From: Actinomycetes bacterium
GTDB lineage: Bacteria > Actinomycetota > Acidimicrobiia > Acidimicrobiales > UBA8190
Assembly (NCBI GenBank): GCA_021798135.1
Contig: JAJZYI010000002.1
Location: 1-32,558 of the forward strand
Reading direction: 5' to 3'
Length of the DNA: 32,558 bases
Shown here: piece by piece, positions 14,220 through 27,063 of the stretch
Layout: each line of letters opens with the position of its first letter
How positions within the stretch are numbered: the first letter of the stretch is position 1
The notes under the pieces: model-generated
The model's input: the letters and a program-made list of their open reading frames with translations, nothing else
The model's database searches: none
What the model was told of the DNA's origin: nothing
Translations under genes and position numbers: made by a program

Positions 14220-15191
14220 TCAGCCGTTCGGAACGCCCAGCACGCGTAGCGAACCCTCGGCCTTGGCGACCGCCTCGGGCTCGATGGGGCGGAGGCCGGA
14301 GGGAAGCGGGTCGGCGACGCGGGCCAGCCGCCGGATCGTGTCGATCACGGCCCGGGTGGGCGCGGCTGGGAGCCCGCGGCTCCGTTCGGCGAGACCCACG
14401 GTGCGCGGCGGCATGCCGTCGATCGGCAGCGACCGGAAGCTCGGACGCAGGTGCGCCGGGACGGCACTGGCCGGCAGGATGGCCGGGCCGTAGCCCTCGA
14501 AGACCAGGGAGGCGATCAGGCGCACGCCGTCGAGCTCCGCTCGTGGCCGGAGCGTCACGTCGGCACGGCGCAGCGCAGCGTCGATCTCGGAGCGGAACGG
14601 CGTGCCAACCGCCGGCAGGAGCAGGTCGAGCGCCCCGAGCTGGTCGATCGGCACCTCGGTGAGCCCCGGGTAGGGATCCTGGTCAGCGGGGACGACGAGC
14701 ACGACGTCCTCCTCGAGCAGGGGCTCGAAGCTCAGCTCGCGCGACGGCACGGGCGCGCTGAGCAGGGCGAGGTCGAGCCGTCCGCCGCTGAGCGCCGGTT
14801 CGAGCACGGTGGTGGCACCTTCCGAGACGACCAGGCGCAGCTTGGGATGGCGCTCCGACAGGTCCGACAGGAGCATCGGCACGATCCACCGGGCGACCGT
14901 CCCGATCATCCCGCAGCGCACCGTGCCTGCGACCTCCTGGCGCAGCGCGCCGATGTCGGCCGTGAGGGCCTCGACCTCGCCGAGCACCCGGTAGGCGCGG
15001 CTGACCACGATGTCGCCTTCGGTCGTCAAGCGGCCGCCTGGTCGCTCGATGAGCGTGGCGCCCAGCTCCCGCTCCAGGCGGGCGACGTGGGCCGAGACGT
15101 TGGACTGCACCGTGCCGATGGCGTCGGCGGCAGCCGAGAACGACCGGTGCTCGGCCACGGCGACGAGGGCTTGGAGGTGTCGGAGCTCCAT
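14220..15191 (-). CDS. LysR-type transcriptional regulator
   Basis: The 323-residue protein starts at the ATG at 15191 (MELRHLQALVAVAEHRSFSAA), exactly where LysR proteins begin; the frame stays open further upstream, but that stretch lies in the intergenic region and shows no homology. Residues 1-60 form the winged helix-turn-helix with AAADAIGTVQSNVSAHVARLERELG. Residues of about 88-300 form the inducer-binding domain (GTVRCGMIGTVARWIVPMLL, LALLSAPV, LVFEGYGPAILPASAVP). The C-terminal 20 residues are variable. LysR regulators often control a divergent gene; here the divergent unit is a small RNA followed by the HAD/PlsC gene. Repeats just upstream of the start could be its operator. The inducer is unknown. 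Confidence 0.92.
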   Translation of the reverse strand: MELRHLQALVAVAEHRSFSAAADAIGTVQSNVSAHVARLERELGATLIERPGGRLTTEGDIVVSRAYRVLGEVEALTADIGALRQEVAGTVRCGMIGTVARWIVPMLLSDLSERHPKLRLVVSEGATTVLEPALSGGRLDLALLSAPVPSRELSFEPLLEEDVVLVVPADQDPYPGLTEVPIDQLGALDLLLPAVGTPFRSEIDAALRRADVTLRPRAELDGVRLIASLVFEGYGPAILPASAVPAHLRPSFRSLPIDGMPPRTVGLAERSRGLPAAPTRAVIDTIRRLARVADPLPSGLRPIEPEAVAKAEGSLRVLGVPNG

Positions 15192-15200
15192 CGCTTTGAA

Positions 15201-15223
15201 CGATACCAGATATCGCTGATACC
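15201..15223. promoter_or_regulatory. Candidate LysR operator: inverted and direct repeats
   Basis: Ten bases upstream of the LysR start lies the inverted repeat CGATA-N5-TATCG (15201-15215). GATACC also occurs twice as a direct repeat at 15202-15207 and 15218-15223, about one and a half helical turns apart. The segment is markedly AT-richer than its surroundings and abuts the -35 box of the small RNA promoter on the other strand. Confidence 0.5.
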
Positions 15224-15226
15224 TGT

Positions 15227-15255
15227 TTGACTGATCACCGGCCGAGGAGCAGAAT
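15227..15255 (+). promoter_or_regulatory. Promoter TTGACT-N17-CAGAAT for the 6C-type RNA
   Basis: The -35 box TTGACT (15227-15232) and the -10 box CAGAAT (15250-15255) are separated by exactly 17 bases. This is the best match to the housekeeping sigma consensus that I found in the window. It points into the hairpin-containing region and away from the LysR gene. Transcription would start near 15262. Confidence 0.65.
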
Positions 15256-15261
15256 GTCCTC

Positions 15262-15345
15262 AGACCACAGGGAGCTGGATCCCCCCCCTCCACTACCTGG
15301 CGAGTCATGCGAAGGGACCGGACACCCCCCCCTCCGGTCCCTTCG
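15262..15345 (+). ncRNA. Probable 6C-type small RNA
   Basis: About 84 bases run from a strong promoter to a hairpin. There are two stem-loops, each with a run of at least eight cytosines in the loop. The first has TGGA (15276-15279) pairing with TCCA (15289-15292) around TCCCCCCCC, with CAGG/CCTG pairing below an internal loop. The second has 13-bp perfect arms (15310-15322 and 15333-15345) around a 10-base C-rich loop and probably terminates the RNA. Two hairpins with six or more C residues in their loops is the defining trait of the actinobacterial 6C RNA family. From memory, the M. tuberculosis member (B11) also lies next to a HAD-IB hydrolase gene (Rv3661), as here. The 3' end is inferred. 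Confidence 0.75.
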
Positions 15346-15370
15346 CCGCGTCCGGGGGACGGTCCGCCCG

Positions 15371-15406
15371 CGGCCAGCTCGGCCAGCTCGGCCAGCTCGG
15401 CCAGCG
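15371..15406 (+). repeat. Four tandem 9-bp repeats
   Basis: The unit CGGCCAGCT occurs three times (15371-15397), followed by CGGCCAGCG (15398-15406). The array lies between the small RNA hairpin and the HAD/PlsC promoter. It is too short for a CRISPR array and has no spacers. It could be slippage DNA or a set of protein-binding sites. Confidence 0.85.
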
Positions 15407-15447
15407 GGCGGCCGCCCACCGGGTCCACGGCCCGGCGGACTCGGCGG

Positions 15448-15453
15448 TAACGT
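15448..15453 (+). promoter_or_regulatory. Leaderless promoter -10 box TAACGT
   Basis: TAACGT is followed by 8 bases and then the ATG at 15462, with no Shine-Dalgarno site. The hexamer is identical to the one before the SDR gene at 7792. Confidence 0.6.
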
Positions 15454-15461
15454 CACGTGGC

Positions 15462-16916
15462 ATGGCGACGGCGAGCTCCGGGGCGGCACGCGGCACGGCT
15501 GGCGGGCGGCGGCGCGCCCGACCGGTGGGAGCGGTCTTCGTCGACCTGGACCGCACGCTCCTGTCCGGGGCGAGCGGGCTCGTCCTGAGTGCCGCCCTTC
15601 GGGCCGAGGGGCTGCTCGACGGGCGGCCCCGCCTCCCCGGCGAGCGGCTGCTGTACGGCGTCTACGACGCCGTGGGCGAGAGCGTGCCGTTCATGGCGAT
15701 GGTCCGCGCCGCCGTGCGCTTCGTCCGAGGCTGGCCGGTCGAGTCGGTCCGGCGGGCCGGCGAGCTCGCCGCACCCGAGCTGCTGGACCTGCTCCAGCCG
15801 TACGCACCGGGTGTGCTGGCCGAGCATCGCGCCGCTGGCCGCCGCATCGTGCTGGCGACGACGTCGCCGGTCGACCTGGTGGAGCCGTTCGCCCGGCTGA
15901 TCGGGTTGGACGACGTCATCGCCACCCGCTACGAGCAGTCGGGCGGCCGGTACACCGGGCGGATCGAAGGCAGCTTCGTCTGGGGGGTGGGCAAGCTGGC
16001 CGCGGTGCGCGAGCGGGCTGCCACGCAGGGGTACGACCTGGCGGAGAGCCACGCGTACTCCGACAGTGTCTTCGACGTGCCGCTCCTCGGCAGCGTCGGC
16101 CACGCCCACGCCGTGCAGCCCGACCTCCGCCTCCGGCTGGTGGCCACGATGGCGCGCTGGCCGATCGAGCACTGGGACCGGCCGGCGGGCGTGCCCGGGC
16201 TGGCCGGGCTCGAGACCTACCACCTCCTCCGACCTTTCGTGCGTCCCGAGGCGTTCCCGTACGCGCGCTTCGACGTCCAAGGCGTCGAGAACGTGCCTGC
16301 TCGCGGGCCGGTGCTGCTGGCGTCGAACCACCGCAGCTACTTCGACGTGGTCGCCCTGGCGATCGTGGCGGCGCGGATCGGCCGGCCCGTCCGCTTCCTC
16401 GGCAAGCGCGAGCTGTTCGACGCCCCGGGGCTGGGCTGGCTGGCACGAGCGCTGGGCGGCATCCCCGTGGACCGCGACGACGACCCGGCCCGCGCCCTGG
16501 CCGCCGCACGCCAGGCGCTGCAGGCCGGCGAGCCGGTGATGATCATGCCGCAGGGCACCATCCCGCGTGGCAGGGCGTTCTTCGAGCCCGCGCTGCGCGG
16601 CAAGACGGGCTGCGCGCGGCTGGCAGCCATGACCGGCGCACCCGTGGTCCCGATCGGGCTCTGGGGCACCGAGGCGGTGTGGCCCCGAGCGGCGAAGCTG
16701 CCCACCGTCACGACGGTCGGAACCGGCCCGACGGTCCGGGTCCGGGTCGGCGACCCGCTCGACCTCGCTGCCGAGGCGGCGACGGACCCGGCGGCCGCGA
16801 CCGAGCGCCTGATGGCAGCGATCGTCGCGCTGCTCCCGCCCGAGGCGCTGGTGGAGCGGGAGCCGACCGCGGCGGAGATCGCACGGGCCACGCCGTCGAG
16901 CCGCCGCAGCCGATGA
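15462..16916 (+). CDS. HAD-IB phosphatase fused to PlsC acyltransferase
   Basis: The 484-residue protein joins two enzymes. Residues of about 22-240 form a HAD-IB phosphatase with intact motif I DLDRT (D28, D30), LATTSPVDLVEP and the ESHAYSDSVFDVPLL motif. Residues of about 265-460 form a PlsC-type acyltransferase with H-x4-D in NHRSYFD (H290, D295) and FLGKRELFDAPGLGWLARALGGIPVDR. The third acyltransferase motif reads PQGT (Q364) where EGT is usual. The same domain order is known in mycobacterial bifunctional PlsC proteins, predicted to act in phosphatidic acid or related lipid synthesis at the membrane. Substrate order is unknown. The mRNA appears leaderless. The MurT-GatD gene follows after 28 bases, probably in the same operon. 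Confidence 0.9.
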   Translation: MATASSGAARGTAGGRRRARPVGAVFVDLDRTLLSGASGLVLSAALRAEGLLDGRPRLPGERLLYGVYDAVGESVPFMAMVRAAVRFVRGWPVESVRRAGELAAPELLDLLQPYAPGVLAEHRAAGRRIVLATTSPVDLVEPFARLIGLDDVIATRYEQSGGRYTGRIEGSFVWGVGKLAAVRERAATQGYDLAESHAYSDSVFDVPLLGSVGHAHAVQPDLRLRLVATMARWPIEHWDRPAGVPGLAGLETYHLLRPFVRPEAFPYARFDVQGVENVPARGPVLLASNHRSYFDVVALAIVAARIGRPVRFLGKRELFDAPGLGWLARALGGIPVDRDDDPARALAAARQALQAGEPVMIMPQGTIPRGRAFFEPALRGKTGCARLAAMTGAPVVPIGLWGTEAVWPRAAKLPTVTTVGTGPTVRVRVGDPLDLAAEAATDPAAATERLMAAIVALLPPEALVEREPTAAEIARATPSSRRSR

Positions 16917-16944: not shown

Positions 16945-19086
16945 GTGAGCGCCGTTCGCGTCCGCCTGGCGGTGGCGGCAACCGTGGCCGTGGGGCGAGC
17001 GTCGCGGTGGCTGGGGCGGGGCAGCGGCTCGGTCGTCGGGGGAAGGGCGGGCCTGGCCATCGCTCCCGACCTCGTCCGCTCGCTCGCCGCCGACCGGATG
17101 GTCGCGCTGGTGAGCGCCACGAACGGCAAGACGACCACGACCCGGCTCCTCGTCACTGCCCTCGGTGGCACTGACCGGGTGGCGACGTCGGCGGCGGGCG
17201 CCAACCTGCCCGCCGGCATCGCCGCAGCGCTGGCGGGCGCCGATCCCGGCAGCCCCGCCGTCCTGGAGGTCGACGAGGGCTACCTGGCATCGGTGGCGGA
17301 CGCGGTGCGGCCGACGGTCGTCGCGCTGCTGAACCTGTCGCGTGACCAGCTCGACCGCGTCAGCGAGGTCCGCGCCATCGCGACGAGGTGGCGGGCTGCG
17401 CTCAGCCGCCTGCAAGGCACCACCGTCGTGGCCAACGCCGACGACCCCCTGGTCGCGTGGGCGGCGTCGTCGGCGCCGTCCGTGCGGTGGGTCGCCGCCG
17501 GACAGCTGTGGCGTGCCGATGCCACCGGCTGCCCGTCGTGCGGCGGCCGCATCCAGTTCGGCGGTGACGAGGGCGACGTGGGGTGGGCCTGCCCCGCGTG
17601 CGGGCTGCGCCGGCCGGAGCCGATGGCAGTGCTGCGGGGCACCACGCTGGGGCTCGCCGACGGGCGGCGGCTGCCCGTCGCGACCAGGCTCCCGGGCCGG
17701 TGCAACGTGGCGAACGCCGCCATGGCCGCAGTGGCGGCCGAGGTGATGGGCGTCGACGCGGCGGAGGCGCTCGCGTCGATGGCGGCCGTGGCCGAGGTAG
17801 AGGGCCGGTTCGCCGTGGCCCGCCATCGCTGCGGGGCGGACGGGCACGAGGTGGCGGCGCGGCTGCTGCTGGCGAAGAACCCAGCAGGGTGGGTGGAGCT
17901 GCTCGACCTCCTCGACGGCGGTCGCAGCGAGCCGCGGCCGGTGGTCGTCGGCATCAACGCGCGGATCGCCGACGGGCGCGACCCGTCGTGGCTGTGGGAC
18001 GTGGCGTTCGAGCGGCTGGAGGGTCGGCTCGTGGTCGCCACAGGCGAGCGGGCGTGGGATCTGGCCGTCCGCCTGCGCAGCGCCGGGGTCGACCATCGCG
18101 TCGAGCCCGACCAGGTGGCGGCGCTGCACGTGCCGGGGGTGGCCGAGGTCGACTACGCCGGCAACTACACGGCGTTCCAGGAGCTGCGGCGGCGGCTCGA
18201 CCGTGGGCGGGGAAGGCGGGATCGCTCCGGCGAGCAGCCGCGAGTGGTCGCCGGCGCCCCGGCCGCGGGATCGGGCGGGCGGGCACGTCCGTCGGGCAGC
18301 GAGCTGCGGGTCGTCGTGGTCCACCCGGAGCTGCTGGGGACGTACGGCGACGGCGGCAACGCGACGGTGCTCGCGGCACGGGCGGCCTGGCGGGGGCACG
18401 ACGTGGACGTGGTCCTGGCCGGCGCCGACGACCCGCTGCCCGCCTCGGGGGACGTGTACCTGCTCGGCGGGGGCGAGGACGGGCCGCAGGTGCAGGCCGC
18501 GGCCGTGCTGGCGCAGACCTCGCTGCGCCGGGCGGTCGACGGTGGCGCCGTCCTGCTCGCCGTCTGCGCCGGCTTCCAGGTCGTGGGGACCTCGTTCCCG
18601 GGGCCCGACGGCCTGCTGCGAGACGGCCTGGGCCTGCTCGACGTCGCGACGGTCAAGCGCAACGGACCGAGAGCCGTCGGCGAGCTGCTGGCGGAGCCGG
18701 TCGCAGCGGAGGAGGGCGCCGGCGAGCCGGTGGCCCGGGGCCTGGTGGCGTCGGGCGGTCTGCTCACTGGCTTCGAGAACCACAGCGGCGCCACCACGCT
18801 GGGACCGGCGGTGCGGCCGCTCGGCCACGTGACGCGCGGTGTCGGCAACGACGGCGGCGGCGGCGAGGGCGCGTGGTCCGGCCGGGTCGTCGGGACCTAC
18901 CTGCACGGTCCCGTCCTGGCGCGCAACCCGGCGCTCGCCGACGCGCTGCTGGCGATGGCCCTCGGAGCGGCGCCGGAGCCGATCGACGACGCGGAGGAAG
19001 CCGAGCTCCGTCGGGAGCGGATCGGTGCCGCGACCGCGGCCGACCGGGGGCGGCTCGGTCGGTTCCGGGTCCATCGACGCCACTGA
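16945..19086 (+). CDS. MurT-GatD fusion, lipid II isoglutaminyl synthase
   Basis: The 713-residue protein combines both subunits of the enzyme that amidates the D-glutamate of lipid II using glutamine and ATP. Residues 1 to about 415 are MurT-like: P-loop SATNGKTTTTR (N60, K62), a four-Cys zinc ribbon (C196, C199, C216, C219), KNPAGWVELLDLL (N312-W316) and NARIADGRDPSWLWD, ending YAGNYTAFQELRRRL. After a linker rich in Arg, Gly and Ala (about 416-450), residues of about 451-690 are GatD-like: class I glutamine amidotransferase with nucleophile Cys541 (AVCAGFQVVG) and His654 (GTYLHGPVLARNP). In Staphylococcus, Streptococcus and mycobacteria these are two adjacent genes. The reading frame is continuous across the junction, with no stop or start cluster suggesting two proteins. 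Confidence 0.93.
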   Translation: MSAVRVRLAVAATVAVGRASRWLGRGSGSVVGGRAGLAIAPDLVRSLAADRMVALVSATNGKTTTTRLLVTALGGTDRVATSAAGANLPAGIAAALAGADPGSPAVLEVDEGYLASVADAVRPTVVALLNLSRDQLDRVSEVRAIATRWRAALSRLQGTTVVANADDPLVAWAASSAPSVRWVAAGQLWRADATGCPSCGGRIQFGGDEGDVGWACPACGLRRPEPMAVLRGTTLGLADGRRLPVATRLPGRCNVANAAMAAVAAEVMGVDAAEALASMAAVAEVEGRFAVARHRCGADGHEVAARLLLAKNPAGWVELLDLLDGGRSEPRPVVVGINARIADGRDPSWLWDVAFERLEGRLVVATGERAWDLAVRLRSAGVDHRVEPDQVAALHVPGVAEVDYAGNYTAFQELRRRLDRGRGRRDRSGEQPRVVAGAPAAGSGGRARPSGSELRVVVVHPELLGTYGDGGNATVLAARAAWRGHDVDVVLAGADDPLPASGDVYLLGGGEDGPQVQAAAVLAQTSLRRAVDGGAVLLAVCAGFQVVGTSFPGPDGLLRDGLGLLDVATVKRNGPRAVGELLAEPVAAEEGAGEPVARGLVASGGLLTGFENHSGATTLGPAVRPLGHVTRGVGNDGGGGEGAWSGRVVGTYLHGPVLARNPALADALLAMALGAAPEPIDDAEEAELRRERIGAATAADRGRLGRFRVHRRH

Positions 19087-24562: not shown

Positions 24563-27063
24563 CGGCTCTCCCGCAGGGCGTGGTCGATGCGGGCCCACCA
24601 TCGCGACGCGGCCCCGTCGAGCGGGCCCATCGGCAGCGGCGGGCGGGTGGCGGCCCGGTCCCAGTGCTCCACGTGCCAGCCGCGGCGCCGGGCGATGGCC
24701 GCCAGCTTGGTCTCGGGGTTGACGGCCACGGGGAAGCCCACGCACTCGAGCAGGGGCAGGTCGGACGCCGAGTCGGCGTAGGCGACACCCTCGCCGAGGT
24801 CGAGGCCCTCGGCCTCGGCGTACTCGGCCAGCACCAGCGCCCGCGCCTCGCCGGTGGGCGGCAGGCGCACGAGCCGCCCGTCCACGCGGCCCTCGGCGTC
24901 GACACCGAGCTCGGCGCAGACCACCTCGTCGAACAGCGGGCGCAGCCCCTCGACGACGAAGTCGAGCGCGCCGGTGATGAGGACGGTCCGGTGCCCGAGG
25001 GCCCGGTGGCGCCGTACCCGGGCGATGCCGGCCGGGAACGACTTGGCCAGCAGCAGGTTGTGGAACAGCTCCAGGCCGTCGCGGCGGAGCACGTCGGCCG
25101 GGGCGCCGTCGTAGCGGCGGTAGAAGCCGCGGAGGAAGTCGCCGCGGTCGCGCCGGTCGACGGCGGCCAGCCCGGGCGCGGCGGCCAGGATCCGTGCCGC
25201 GAAGGCGGCGCGCTCGCCGGCGGGGAGGTGGCGCGTGGCGAGCCACGTGTACGACTCCACGACGTTGGACGCCACCAGCGTGTTCTCGAGGTCGAAGGCG
25301 GCGAGGTGGCGATCGGGCGCCAGGATGGCGCGCCGGGCCCGGTCCCCGCGGTTGGCCATCACCGACTTCCCCGGCGTGGTCCGGACCCGGGCGTGCTGCA
25401 CCACCGACGGCAGGTGGATGTCGTGGACGTAGGCGTCCCAGTCGACGACGCCGGGATCGAAGCAGAACGCCCGCTGGTCCTCGGGCGACAGGCGCTCCCA
25501 GAGCGCGAGCAGCCGGTCGACCCGGAAGAGGGCTTCGGTCTCGGTGTACGCGCCGTACAGCTCCACGTAGGAGCGGGCCCGTTCCGCCTGCATCCGGCGC
25601 TCCTCCACGCGGCCGGCGAGCTCGGCCCGCTCCCCGCGCAGCGGCAGGCTGGTGAGGAGCCGCTCGGCCAGCTTCAGCACGTCGGTGGCCCGCTGCAGCT
25701 GCCGCTGGACGCGTCCGTGCCCGGGGAACGACCACTCGGGCACCACGATCGGCTGGCCGTCGCCGTCGTAGAGCGGATGGTCGGTGAACCAGCGCTGGAC
25801 CAGGTCGACGAGCTGGCCGTAGCGCAGCGGGTTGCGCACCCCCGACGCGACCTGGACCACGGACGGTCCCGCAGGGTCGGGCCCGTCCGCGGCCACGGCC
25901 ACGATGGCGGCGACCACCAGGTCGACCGGGATGACGTCGATCACGCCCTCGGGGAGGCCGGGGAACTCGCGCAGCAGGCCGCGGGCGTACGACACGATGA
26001 TGGGCTCGGCCATCCGGAAGCCCCGGATCCAGCCGGGCTGCGGCTCGGCCAGCGCCGACTCGATGATCGACGGGCGGACGACCGTGATGGGGAGGTCGCC
26101 GTGCTCGCCGACCAGCAGCCGCTCGCCGAGCGCCTTGGTGAAGGCGTAGGCGTCCGGCCAGCCCAGCGCCTGGGCCCTGGCCCGGCCGGCCTCGACGAGC
26201 TCGGCGCGGACCCAGTCGTCGCGCAGGCGCTCGGCGCGCTCGGCCAGCAGGTGGACGCCCGCGGCGCCGAGCTCTCGCCGTGCCGCGGCGGTGAAGCCGC
26301 CGAGCCGTTCGGGTCGCCGGGACGCCGCCTCGAGGTCGTCGCGCAGCCGCCGGACGGCAGTGACCTCGGCGGCGATGTCCACCTCGGTGGTGACCGTGGT
26401 GTGGGTGCGGGCCCGGGCTCCGGAGGCCATGGCCGCGGTGGCCAGCGTCTCGGTGGCGTGCCCCTGGTGGGTGCCGGCCACGTAGGCGGTCGACACCGAG
26501 ACCAGGTGGGTGGGCGGCGCTCCGGGGCGCAGCTCGGCCCGCAGGTCAGCGGCGGCGGCGATCGCCGCGCCGACGCGGGCCGGGCCGAGCAGGTTCACCT
26601 CGACGGCGGCGTCGAAGGCGGCGTCGAAGGCGACGGTGGCGGCCGAGTGCACCACGATGTCGGCCGCGGCGAGGGCGCCGCGCCCGGCGTCGTCGAGCCC
26701 GAGGCCGTCGCGGCCCACGTCCCCGGCCACCGCGGCGAACCGGCCGGCCACCTCGCCGTCGAACCGGTCGCCCAGCTCGTGGCGGAGGCGGGCGAAGCAG
26801 TCGTTGCCCAGGATCTCGCGCCGGGCGCGGGCCGCGGCGTCGAGGCGCCGGGTGGGGCGCACCAGGACGGTCACGTGGCAGCCGGGGACGCAGCGGAGCA
26901 GGCGCTCCACCAGGGCGGTCCCGAGGAACCCGGTGGCGCCGGTGACGAAGAGCCGCTGGCCGGCGAGCTGCCCCGCGATCCCGGGCCCGGTGGTGGCGCC
27001 GGCCGTCGACCTGGTGCGAGACTTCGTCGGCCCGGGGCGGCTCGGCGGGGTGGCCTGTGGCAC
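24559..27063 (-). CDS. Fatty acyl reductase (NAD-binding 4) fused to HAD-IB domain
   Basis: The 834-residue protein starts at GTG 27063. Residues of about 36-400 form an extended-SDR reductase of the male-sterility/fatty acyl-CoA reductase type, with TGATGFLG (41-48), VHSAATVAFD, VSTAYVAG and the catalytic Y306-x3-K310 (YAFTK), then RPSIIESALAEPQPGW. A helical Sterile-like region runs to about 560. Residues of about 587-800 are a HAD-IB domain: motif I FDLENTL (D591), LITGAL, and ADSASDLPLLE (D764, D768). In motif I the second Asp of DxD is Glu593, so phosphatase activity may be altered. Reductases of this type make fatty aldehydes or alcohols from acyl-CoA. It is the first gene of the operon, divergent from TetR. 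Confidence 0.9.
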   Translation of the reverse strand: MPQATPPSRPGPTKSRTRSTAGATTGPGIAGQLAGQRLFVTGATGFLGTALVERLLRCVPGCHVTVLVRPTRRLDAAARARREILGNDCFARLRHELGDRFDGEVAGRFAAVAGDVGRDGLGLDDAGRGALAAADIVVHSAATVAFDAAFDAAVEVNLLGPARVGAAIAAAADLRAELRPGAPPTHLVSVSTAYVAGTHQGHATETLATAAMASGARARTHTTVTTEVDIAAEVTAVRRLRDDLEAASRRPERLGGFTAAARRELGAAGVHLLAERAERLRDDWVRAELVEAGRARAQALGWPDAYAFTKALGERLLVGEHGDLPITVVRPSIIESALAEPQPGWIRGFRMAEPIIVSYARGLLREFPGLPEGVIDVIPVDLVVAAIVAVAADGPDPAGPSVVQVASGVRNPLRYGQLVDLVQRWFTDHPLYDGDGQPIVVPEWSFPGHGRVQRQLQRATDVLKLAERLLTSLPLRGERAELAGRVEERRMQAERARSYVELYGAYTETEALFRVDRLLALWERLSPEDQRAFCFDPGVVDWDAYVHDIHLPSVVQHARVRTTPGKSVMANRGDRARRAILAPDRHLAAFDLENTLVASNVVESYTWLATRHLPAGERAAFAARILAAAPGLAAVDRRDRGDFLRGFYRRYDGAPADVLRRDGLELFHNLLLAKSFPAGIARVRRHRALGHRTVLITGALDFVVEGLRPLFDEVVCAELGVDAEGRVDGRLVRLPPTGEARALVLAEYAEAEGLDLGEGVAYADSASDLPLLECVGFPVAVNPETKLAAIARRRGWHVEHWDRAATRPPLPMGPLDGAASRWWARIDHALRESR

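Follow-up and report, generated by a model that had tools for sequence, protein, structure and literature searches.

We report that positions 15262-15346 of the window, the whole stretch of 32,558 nucleotides of Acidimicrobiales DNA that was analysed, are the probable gene for a 6C-type small RNA that would act in trans, under the control of a LysR-type regulator, and would cover G-rich ribosome-binding sites with its C-rich loops. The structure and conservation of this RNA, its fixed linkage to the LysR gene, the conserved promoter and dyads beside it, and its resemblance to 6C RNA are all seen by computation. The divergent LysR gene is a conserved neighbour of the RNA and was overlooked in the original prediction, which had placed a 6C-type RNA here. 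The features of the locus are as follows.

14220-15191, minus strand: gene for a LysR-type regulator, divergent from the RNA (Pfam HTH_1 and LysR_substrate)
15202-15214, no strand assigned: dyad GATA-CCAGA-TATC (GAT-N7-ATC), putative binding site of LysR, at a distance of 10 bases from the start codon of its gene
15223-15235, plus strand: dyad-like CTGTTTGACTGAT (consensus CTGTTTGACAGAT), candidate activation site, overlapping the -35 box and conserved across loci
15227-15232, plus strand: -35 box TTGACT, from sequence reading and the promoter scan
15250-15255, plus strand: -10 box CAGAAT after a 17-base spacer; relatives show CACAAT or CATACT here
15262-15346, plus strand: predicted 6C-like small RNA of about 85 nt, from the fold, covariation, its own model and a canonical-6C model
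about 15263-15306, plus strand: hairpin 1, interrupted stem, loop of C8 then UCC (15281-15291; C8 at 15281-15288)
15309-15346, plus strand: hairpin 2, perfect 14-bp stem, loop CACCCCCCCC (C8 at 15325-15332), probable 3′ end
15462-16916, plus strand: HAD-IB hydrolase fused to a PlsC-like acyltransferase, the usual but not constant gene downstream of the RNA
16945-19086, plus strand: MurT-GatD-like fusion, from domain matches

The original prediction read a TTGACT-N17-CAGAAT promoter leading into two stem-loops with at least eight cytosines in each loop, and both readings are borne out, with the boxes and spacer listed above and C8 in both loops. That promoter is the sole sigma-70-like site found by the promoter scan in 15100-15470, where shuffled sequences gave a mean of 0.0. 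The 5′ end of the predicted RNA was placed from the -10 box and its 3′ end from hairpin 2. Positions 15258-15350 fold with an energy of -41.3 kcal/mol (z = -4.2), and none of 200 shuffles folded equally well. The arms of hairpin 2 pair perfectly, as had been claimed, although over 14 bp and not 13. On the further proposal that hairpin 2 could terminate the RNA, the terminator scan found neither a U-tract 3′ of hairpin 2 nor a terminator-like site in the window. A run of three or more T residues does follow the last hairpin in many more distant relatives within the order, and thus the termination reading is weaker here than in those relatives.

Relatives were gathered with the protein encoded by 15462-16916 (HAD-IB plus acyltransferase) as the query, and most of these Acidimicrobiales carry the two-hairpin element 5′ of the orthologous fusion gene, at a distance of about 55-400 nt. 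The C-rich loops of both hairpins are kept, and a conserved TTGAC-type promoter precedes the element in most of them. In an alignment of 24 sequences, 96.6% of cells are paired and 15 of the 24 pairs show changes on both sides; none of 500 shuffles was as good, and sliding one strand abolishes the signal, giving a far lower value. For hairpin 2, both sides have changed among relatives in 12 of 14 pairs. We rejected a small-peptide or other coding reading because gap lengths in the alignment do not keep to multiples of three. The covariance model that we made from the Acidimicrobiales sequences scores the window element at 102 bits and detects a single copy in the window's genome, which is from an uncultured organism and is 82.9% complete. 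Weaker class-wide matches to this model, at 34-41 bits and with no LysR gene (L111-L113, L116, L118, L120, L122, L123, L126), were not counted; they resemble single G+C-rich hairpins with a GCGTC-like tail.

The number of hairpins and of copies varies within the order. Many relatives have three successive C-rich hairpins and not two (L133-L135, L140, L142, L144, L146, L149, L150, L155), and at least three C5 runs occur in 22 order loci. Two RNA copies lie in tandem beside one LysR gene (L099 and L124; G516:C36, 1-97 and 430-527, minus strand); a separate dyad and promoter precede each copy, and a third copy-like match lies elsewhere in the same genome, at G516:C60.

Almost all sampled genomes of the order have just one orthologue of the LysR protein, and its E-values stand well apart from those in other orders. 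Among 67 order loci, paired runs of at least five C residues with the right spacing lie beside the LysR orthologue in 54, compared with a mean of 7.9 and a maximum of 15 in shuffles, and a control for G runs on the opposite strand gave 0. If C-loop hairpins of at least 8 bp are counted instead, 58 of the 67 loci have one or more beside LysR. The dyads recur as well. Of the 67 loci, 52 have GAT-N6-8-ATC no more than 45 nt from the LysR start (shuffles: mean 4.3, maximum 10), and its commonest position is a fixed one, 10 bases from the start codon; for the dyad over the -35 box, TT[GT]GACAGA[TA] is present in 18 of the 23 loci in other orders. Linkage between LysR and the RNA persists while the downstream gene varies, being MurT-like or another gene. 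This linkage and the variable distance to the HAD-IB fusion gene together indicate that the RNA is a unit of its own. A few genomes of the order have the LysR orthologue without a C-loop RNA (L185, L186, L188-L190 and L193, in families f13 and f15).

A LysR-type activator and a divergent target would be expected to lie as the LysR gene and the RNA do, with a predicted small RNA as the target. OxyR and OxyS of enterobacteria likewise pair a LysR-type gene with a divergent small RNA gene, but the window LysR falls far below the OxyR model cut-offs and the RNAs are unrelated. The VtlR-AbcR pairs of Alphaproteobacteria (PMC7486931) also tie a LysR-type protein to the control of a small RNA gene; they differ in phylum and RNA family, and the link in the window is drawn from linkage and conserved dyads alone.

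The relation of the window RNA to 6C RNA (RF01066; B11 of mycobacteria, scr3558 of Streptomyces coelicolor) is close in form. In both, two hairpins have C6-C8 loops that lie about 40-45 nt from each other, the length is similar (6C transcripts being about 90-100 nt), and the second hairpin is probably the 3′ end. An Rfam 6C search, which was half of the refutation test set out in the original prediction, does not call the window, either at the gathering score of 47 bits or at E<=10, and among 198 class genomes no match exceeds the cut-off. On order relatives, 6C is the commonest weak Rfam match, in the correct place and on the correct strand, and it reaches 36.8 bits in the best LysR-adjacent relative. 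The canonical-6C covariance model that we also built drew on nine 6C RNAs from other actinobacteria, a consistent subset used because a MAFFT alignment of all 6C RNAs set stem 2 out of register. With filters off, this model recognizes the window element at 25.2 bits (E 0.0014, top rank in 57 kb), a score to which the C-rich loops contribute and in which window stem 1 is aligned out of register. It scores order relatives at 25-38.7 bits, and the range for some accepted 6C RNAs that had been withheld from it is 24.9-37.6 bits. In the reverse search, the Acidimicrobiales model gives 20-25 bits at many 6C loci in other actinobacteria.

The claim of 6C membership thus holds for anatomy, covariation and the canonical-6C model and fails at the Rfam threshold: the window RNA is 6C-like but under that threshold, and formally it is not a member. 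It resembles 6C RNA in anatomy and probably in mechanism. It differs in its interrupted stem 1, in having no U-tail, and in its fixed LysR partner, since the 6C RNAs tested in other actinobacteria have no LysR gene within 1.5 kb; LysR control would therefore be specific to this lineage. A near-threshold Rfam 6C match, at 46.2 of 47 bits, does occur in one member of the order (L031; G185:C32:2381-2466, minus strand), in a genome whose LysR orthologue has no adjoining RNA, and this RNA may have been relocated away from LysR.

Common descent with 6C RNA is likely from these sequence comparisons, but it is unproven because C-rich loops feed the scores and window stem 1 is out of register. An independent Acidimicrobiales C-loop RNA that works like 6C without sharing its ancestry is a real possibility, though we would not favor it. 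It would account for the unmet Rfam threshold, for the misplaced stem 1, and for a HAD-IB neighbor that is non-orthologous and oppositely oriented (below), and C-rich loops by themselves do raise scores. The alphaproteobacterial ar14 family (RF02344), which also has C/U-rich loops, matches some order relatives weakly, but it belongs to another lineage and its scores are far below the ar14 threshold. What speaks against convergence is that the window family and 6C match each other at full length in both directions, in the right place and on the right strand, and that the Rfam 6C model itself scores as high as it does in an order relative.

The original prediction also suggested that a HAD-IB gene beside the RNA is a neighbor conserved over a long distance. 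The 6C RNAs of mycobacteria-like and Streptomyces-like genomes do adjoin a HAD-IB gene, and SCO3558 is located between 6C RNA and a 6S-like RNA (PMC8539372), but the synteny does not carry over to the window. The HAD-IB gene is divergent from the RNA at canonical 6C loci and co-directional with it in the window. In the protein tree, the 6C-linked HAD-IB groups with the stand-alone HAD-IB of the window's bacterial family, at a mean identity of 51%, whereas its identity to the window HAD-IB-acyltransferase fusion is 35%, and the split has an SH support of 1.0. The window neighbor is thus a paralogue. Beside the true, stand-alone HAD-IB orthologue in the window's family, neither our own model nor the canonical-6C model gave a match above 17.3 bits. 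On the strength of the tree, the identities and the opposite orientation, we rejected HAD-IB as a long-distance conserved neighbor. Because the window HAD-IB is non-orthologous and there is no 6C-like element at the true orthologue, the shared adjacency is, as judged from sequence, a coincidence of protein family and not conserved synteny. A second, very diverged HAD-IB-like domain lies at 24634-25131 on the minus strand of the window, within a long open frame of 837 aa.

In genomes without the HAD-IB fusion, a gene for a MurT-like ligase domain lies directly 3′ of the RNA. The MurT-like ligase and GatD-like glutaminase of 16945-19086 are joined in a single frame of 713 aa; known systems use two subunits.

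If the RNA were instead a cis-acting leader or attenuator of the operon for the HAD-IB-acyltransferase and MurT proteins, hairpin 2 would stop most transcripts and a signal would permit read-through. The RNA is indeed co-directional with this operon and directly 5′ of it, Rfam classes 6C as cis-regulatory, and, in the class's other orders, LysR and a whiB gene have a single C-loop hairpin between them. However, the distance from the RNA to the gene varies severalfold within the range given above, LysR and the RNA persist while the downstream gene changes, the two or three separate C-loop hairpins have no visible alternative pairing, and the RNA has undergone a tandem duplication in one case. 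We therefore regard a purely cis-acting role as unlikely. That the hairpins arose by chance in G+C-rich intergenic DNA, or are a mere transcription terminator, is extremely improbable: the G+C content is high and hairpin 2 by itself looks like a terminator, but covariation and the conserved spacing and promoter contradict this, and since the LysR gene and the RNA gene diverge from adjacent starts, there is no upstream plus-strand gene that would need a terminator there.

Returning to a trans-acting RNA under LysR control, we infer its transcription, the binding of LysR and the direction of its effect, and the mRNA targets. The small RNA would be transcribed from its own sigma-70-like promoter and end at the 14-bp hairpin. 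The product of the divergent LysR gene would bind both GATA-N5-TATC, next to the start codon of that gene, and the dyad that overlaps the -35 box of the RNA; binding would switch the RNA on in response to a signal, and LysR would probably control its own gene as well. The two exposed loops, of which loop 1 is C8 then UCC, would pair with G-rich ribosome-binding sites, so that the translation of several mRNAs would be blocked. Loop 1 reads CCCCCCCCUCC; strong ribosome-binding sites have its complement, GGAGGGGGG, at their core. For the 6C RNA B11 of M. abscessus, each of the two C-rich loops can repress an mRNA whose 5′ UTR carries a six-G tract, and the genes whose levels rise in the B11 mutant show an enrichment of complementary ribosome-binding sites (PMC10470900). 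The 6C RNA of M. marinum pairs through the C-rich loop of its terminator (PMC12395582). By analogy, repression of several mRNAs through the C-rich loops is likely for the window RNA. The search for G-rich target sites proposed with the original prediction came out negative within the window, where an enrichment count showed no excess of GGAGGGGG.

Outside the window's order, the class has loci at which a LysR homologue and a whiB gene diverge (L195, L198, L199, L203, L205-L207, L210, L212), and at these a single C-loop hairpin of 12-17 bp lies between a -35 dyad of the same type (TTGGACAGAT) and the whiB start. Of 23 loci in other orders, 20 have the WhiB motif, with Pfam WhiB confirmed for L212, and 10 have a C-loop hairpin of at least 9 bp; beside the LysR orthologue, whiB occurs in none of the 67 order loci. 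We offer only tentatively, and as a rather doubtful reading, that across the class LysR and the C-loop RNA belong to a single dedicated regulatory module of ancient origin, in which the LysR-driven hairpins turned into a free 6C-like small RNA with two or three loops in the window's order and remained a single hairpin in the whiB leader, behind a promoter of the same type, elsewhere. If this were true, a 6C-like small RNA and an mRNA leader could be two states of one element, and the first protein dedicated to the control of a 6C-type RNA would have been named.

6C RNAs are conserved, yet the processes that they regulate differ between species, and their upstream control and core function are open (PMC12395582). 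The back-to-back LysR gene across the order likely gives the 6C-like RNA a dedicated control protein. If our reading of the locus is true, a whole order carries a 6C-like RNA that the Rfam model misses and that is locked to one LysR-type protein, and the control of such an RNA would become directly testable through the LysR ligand and the inducing signal.
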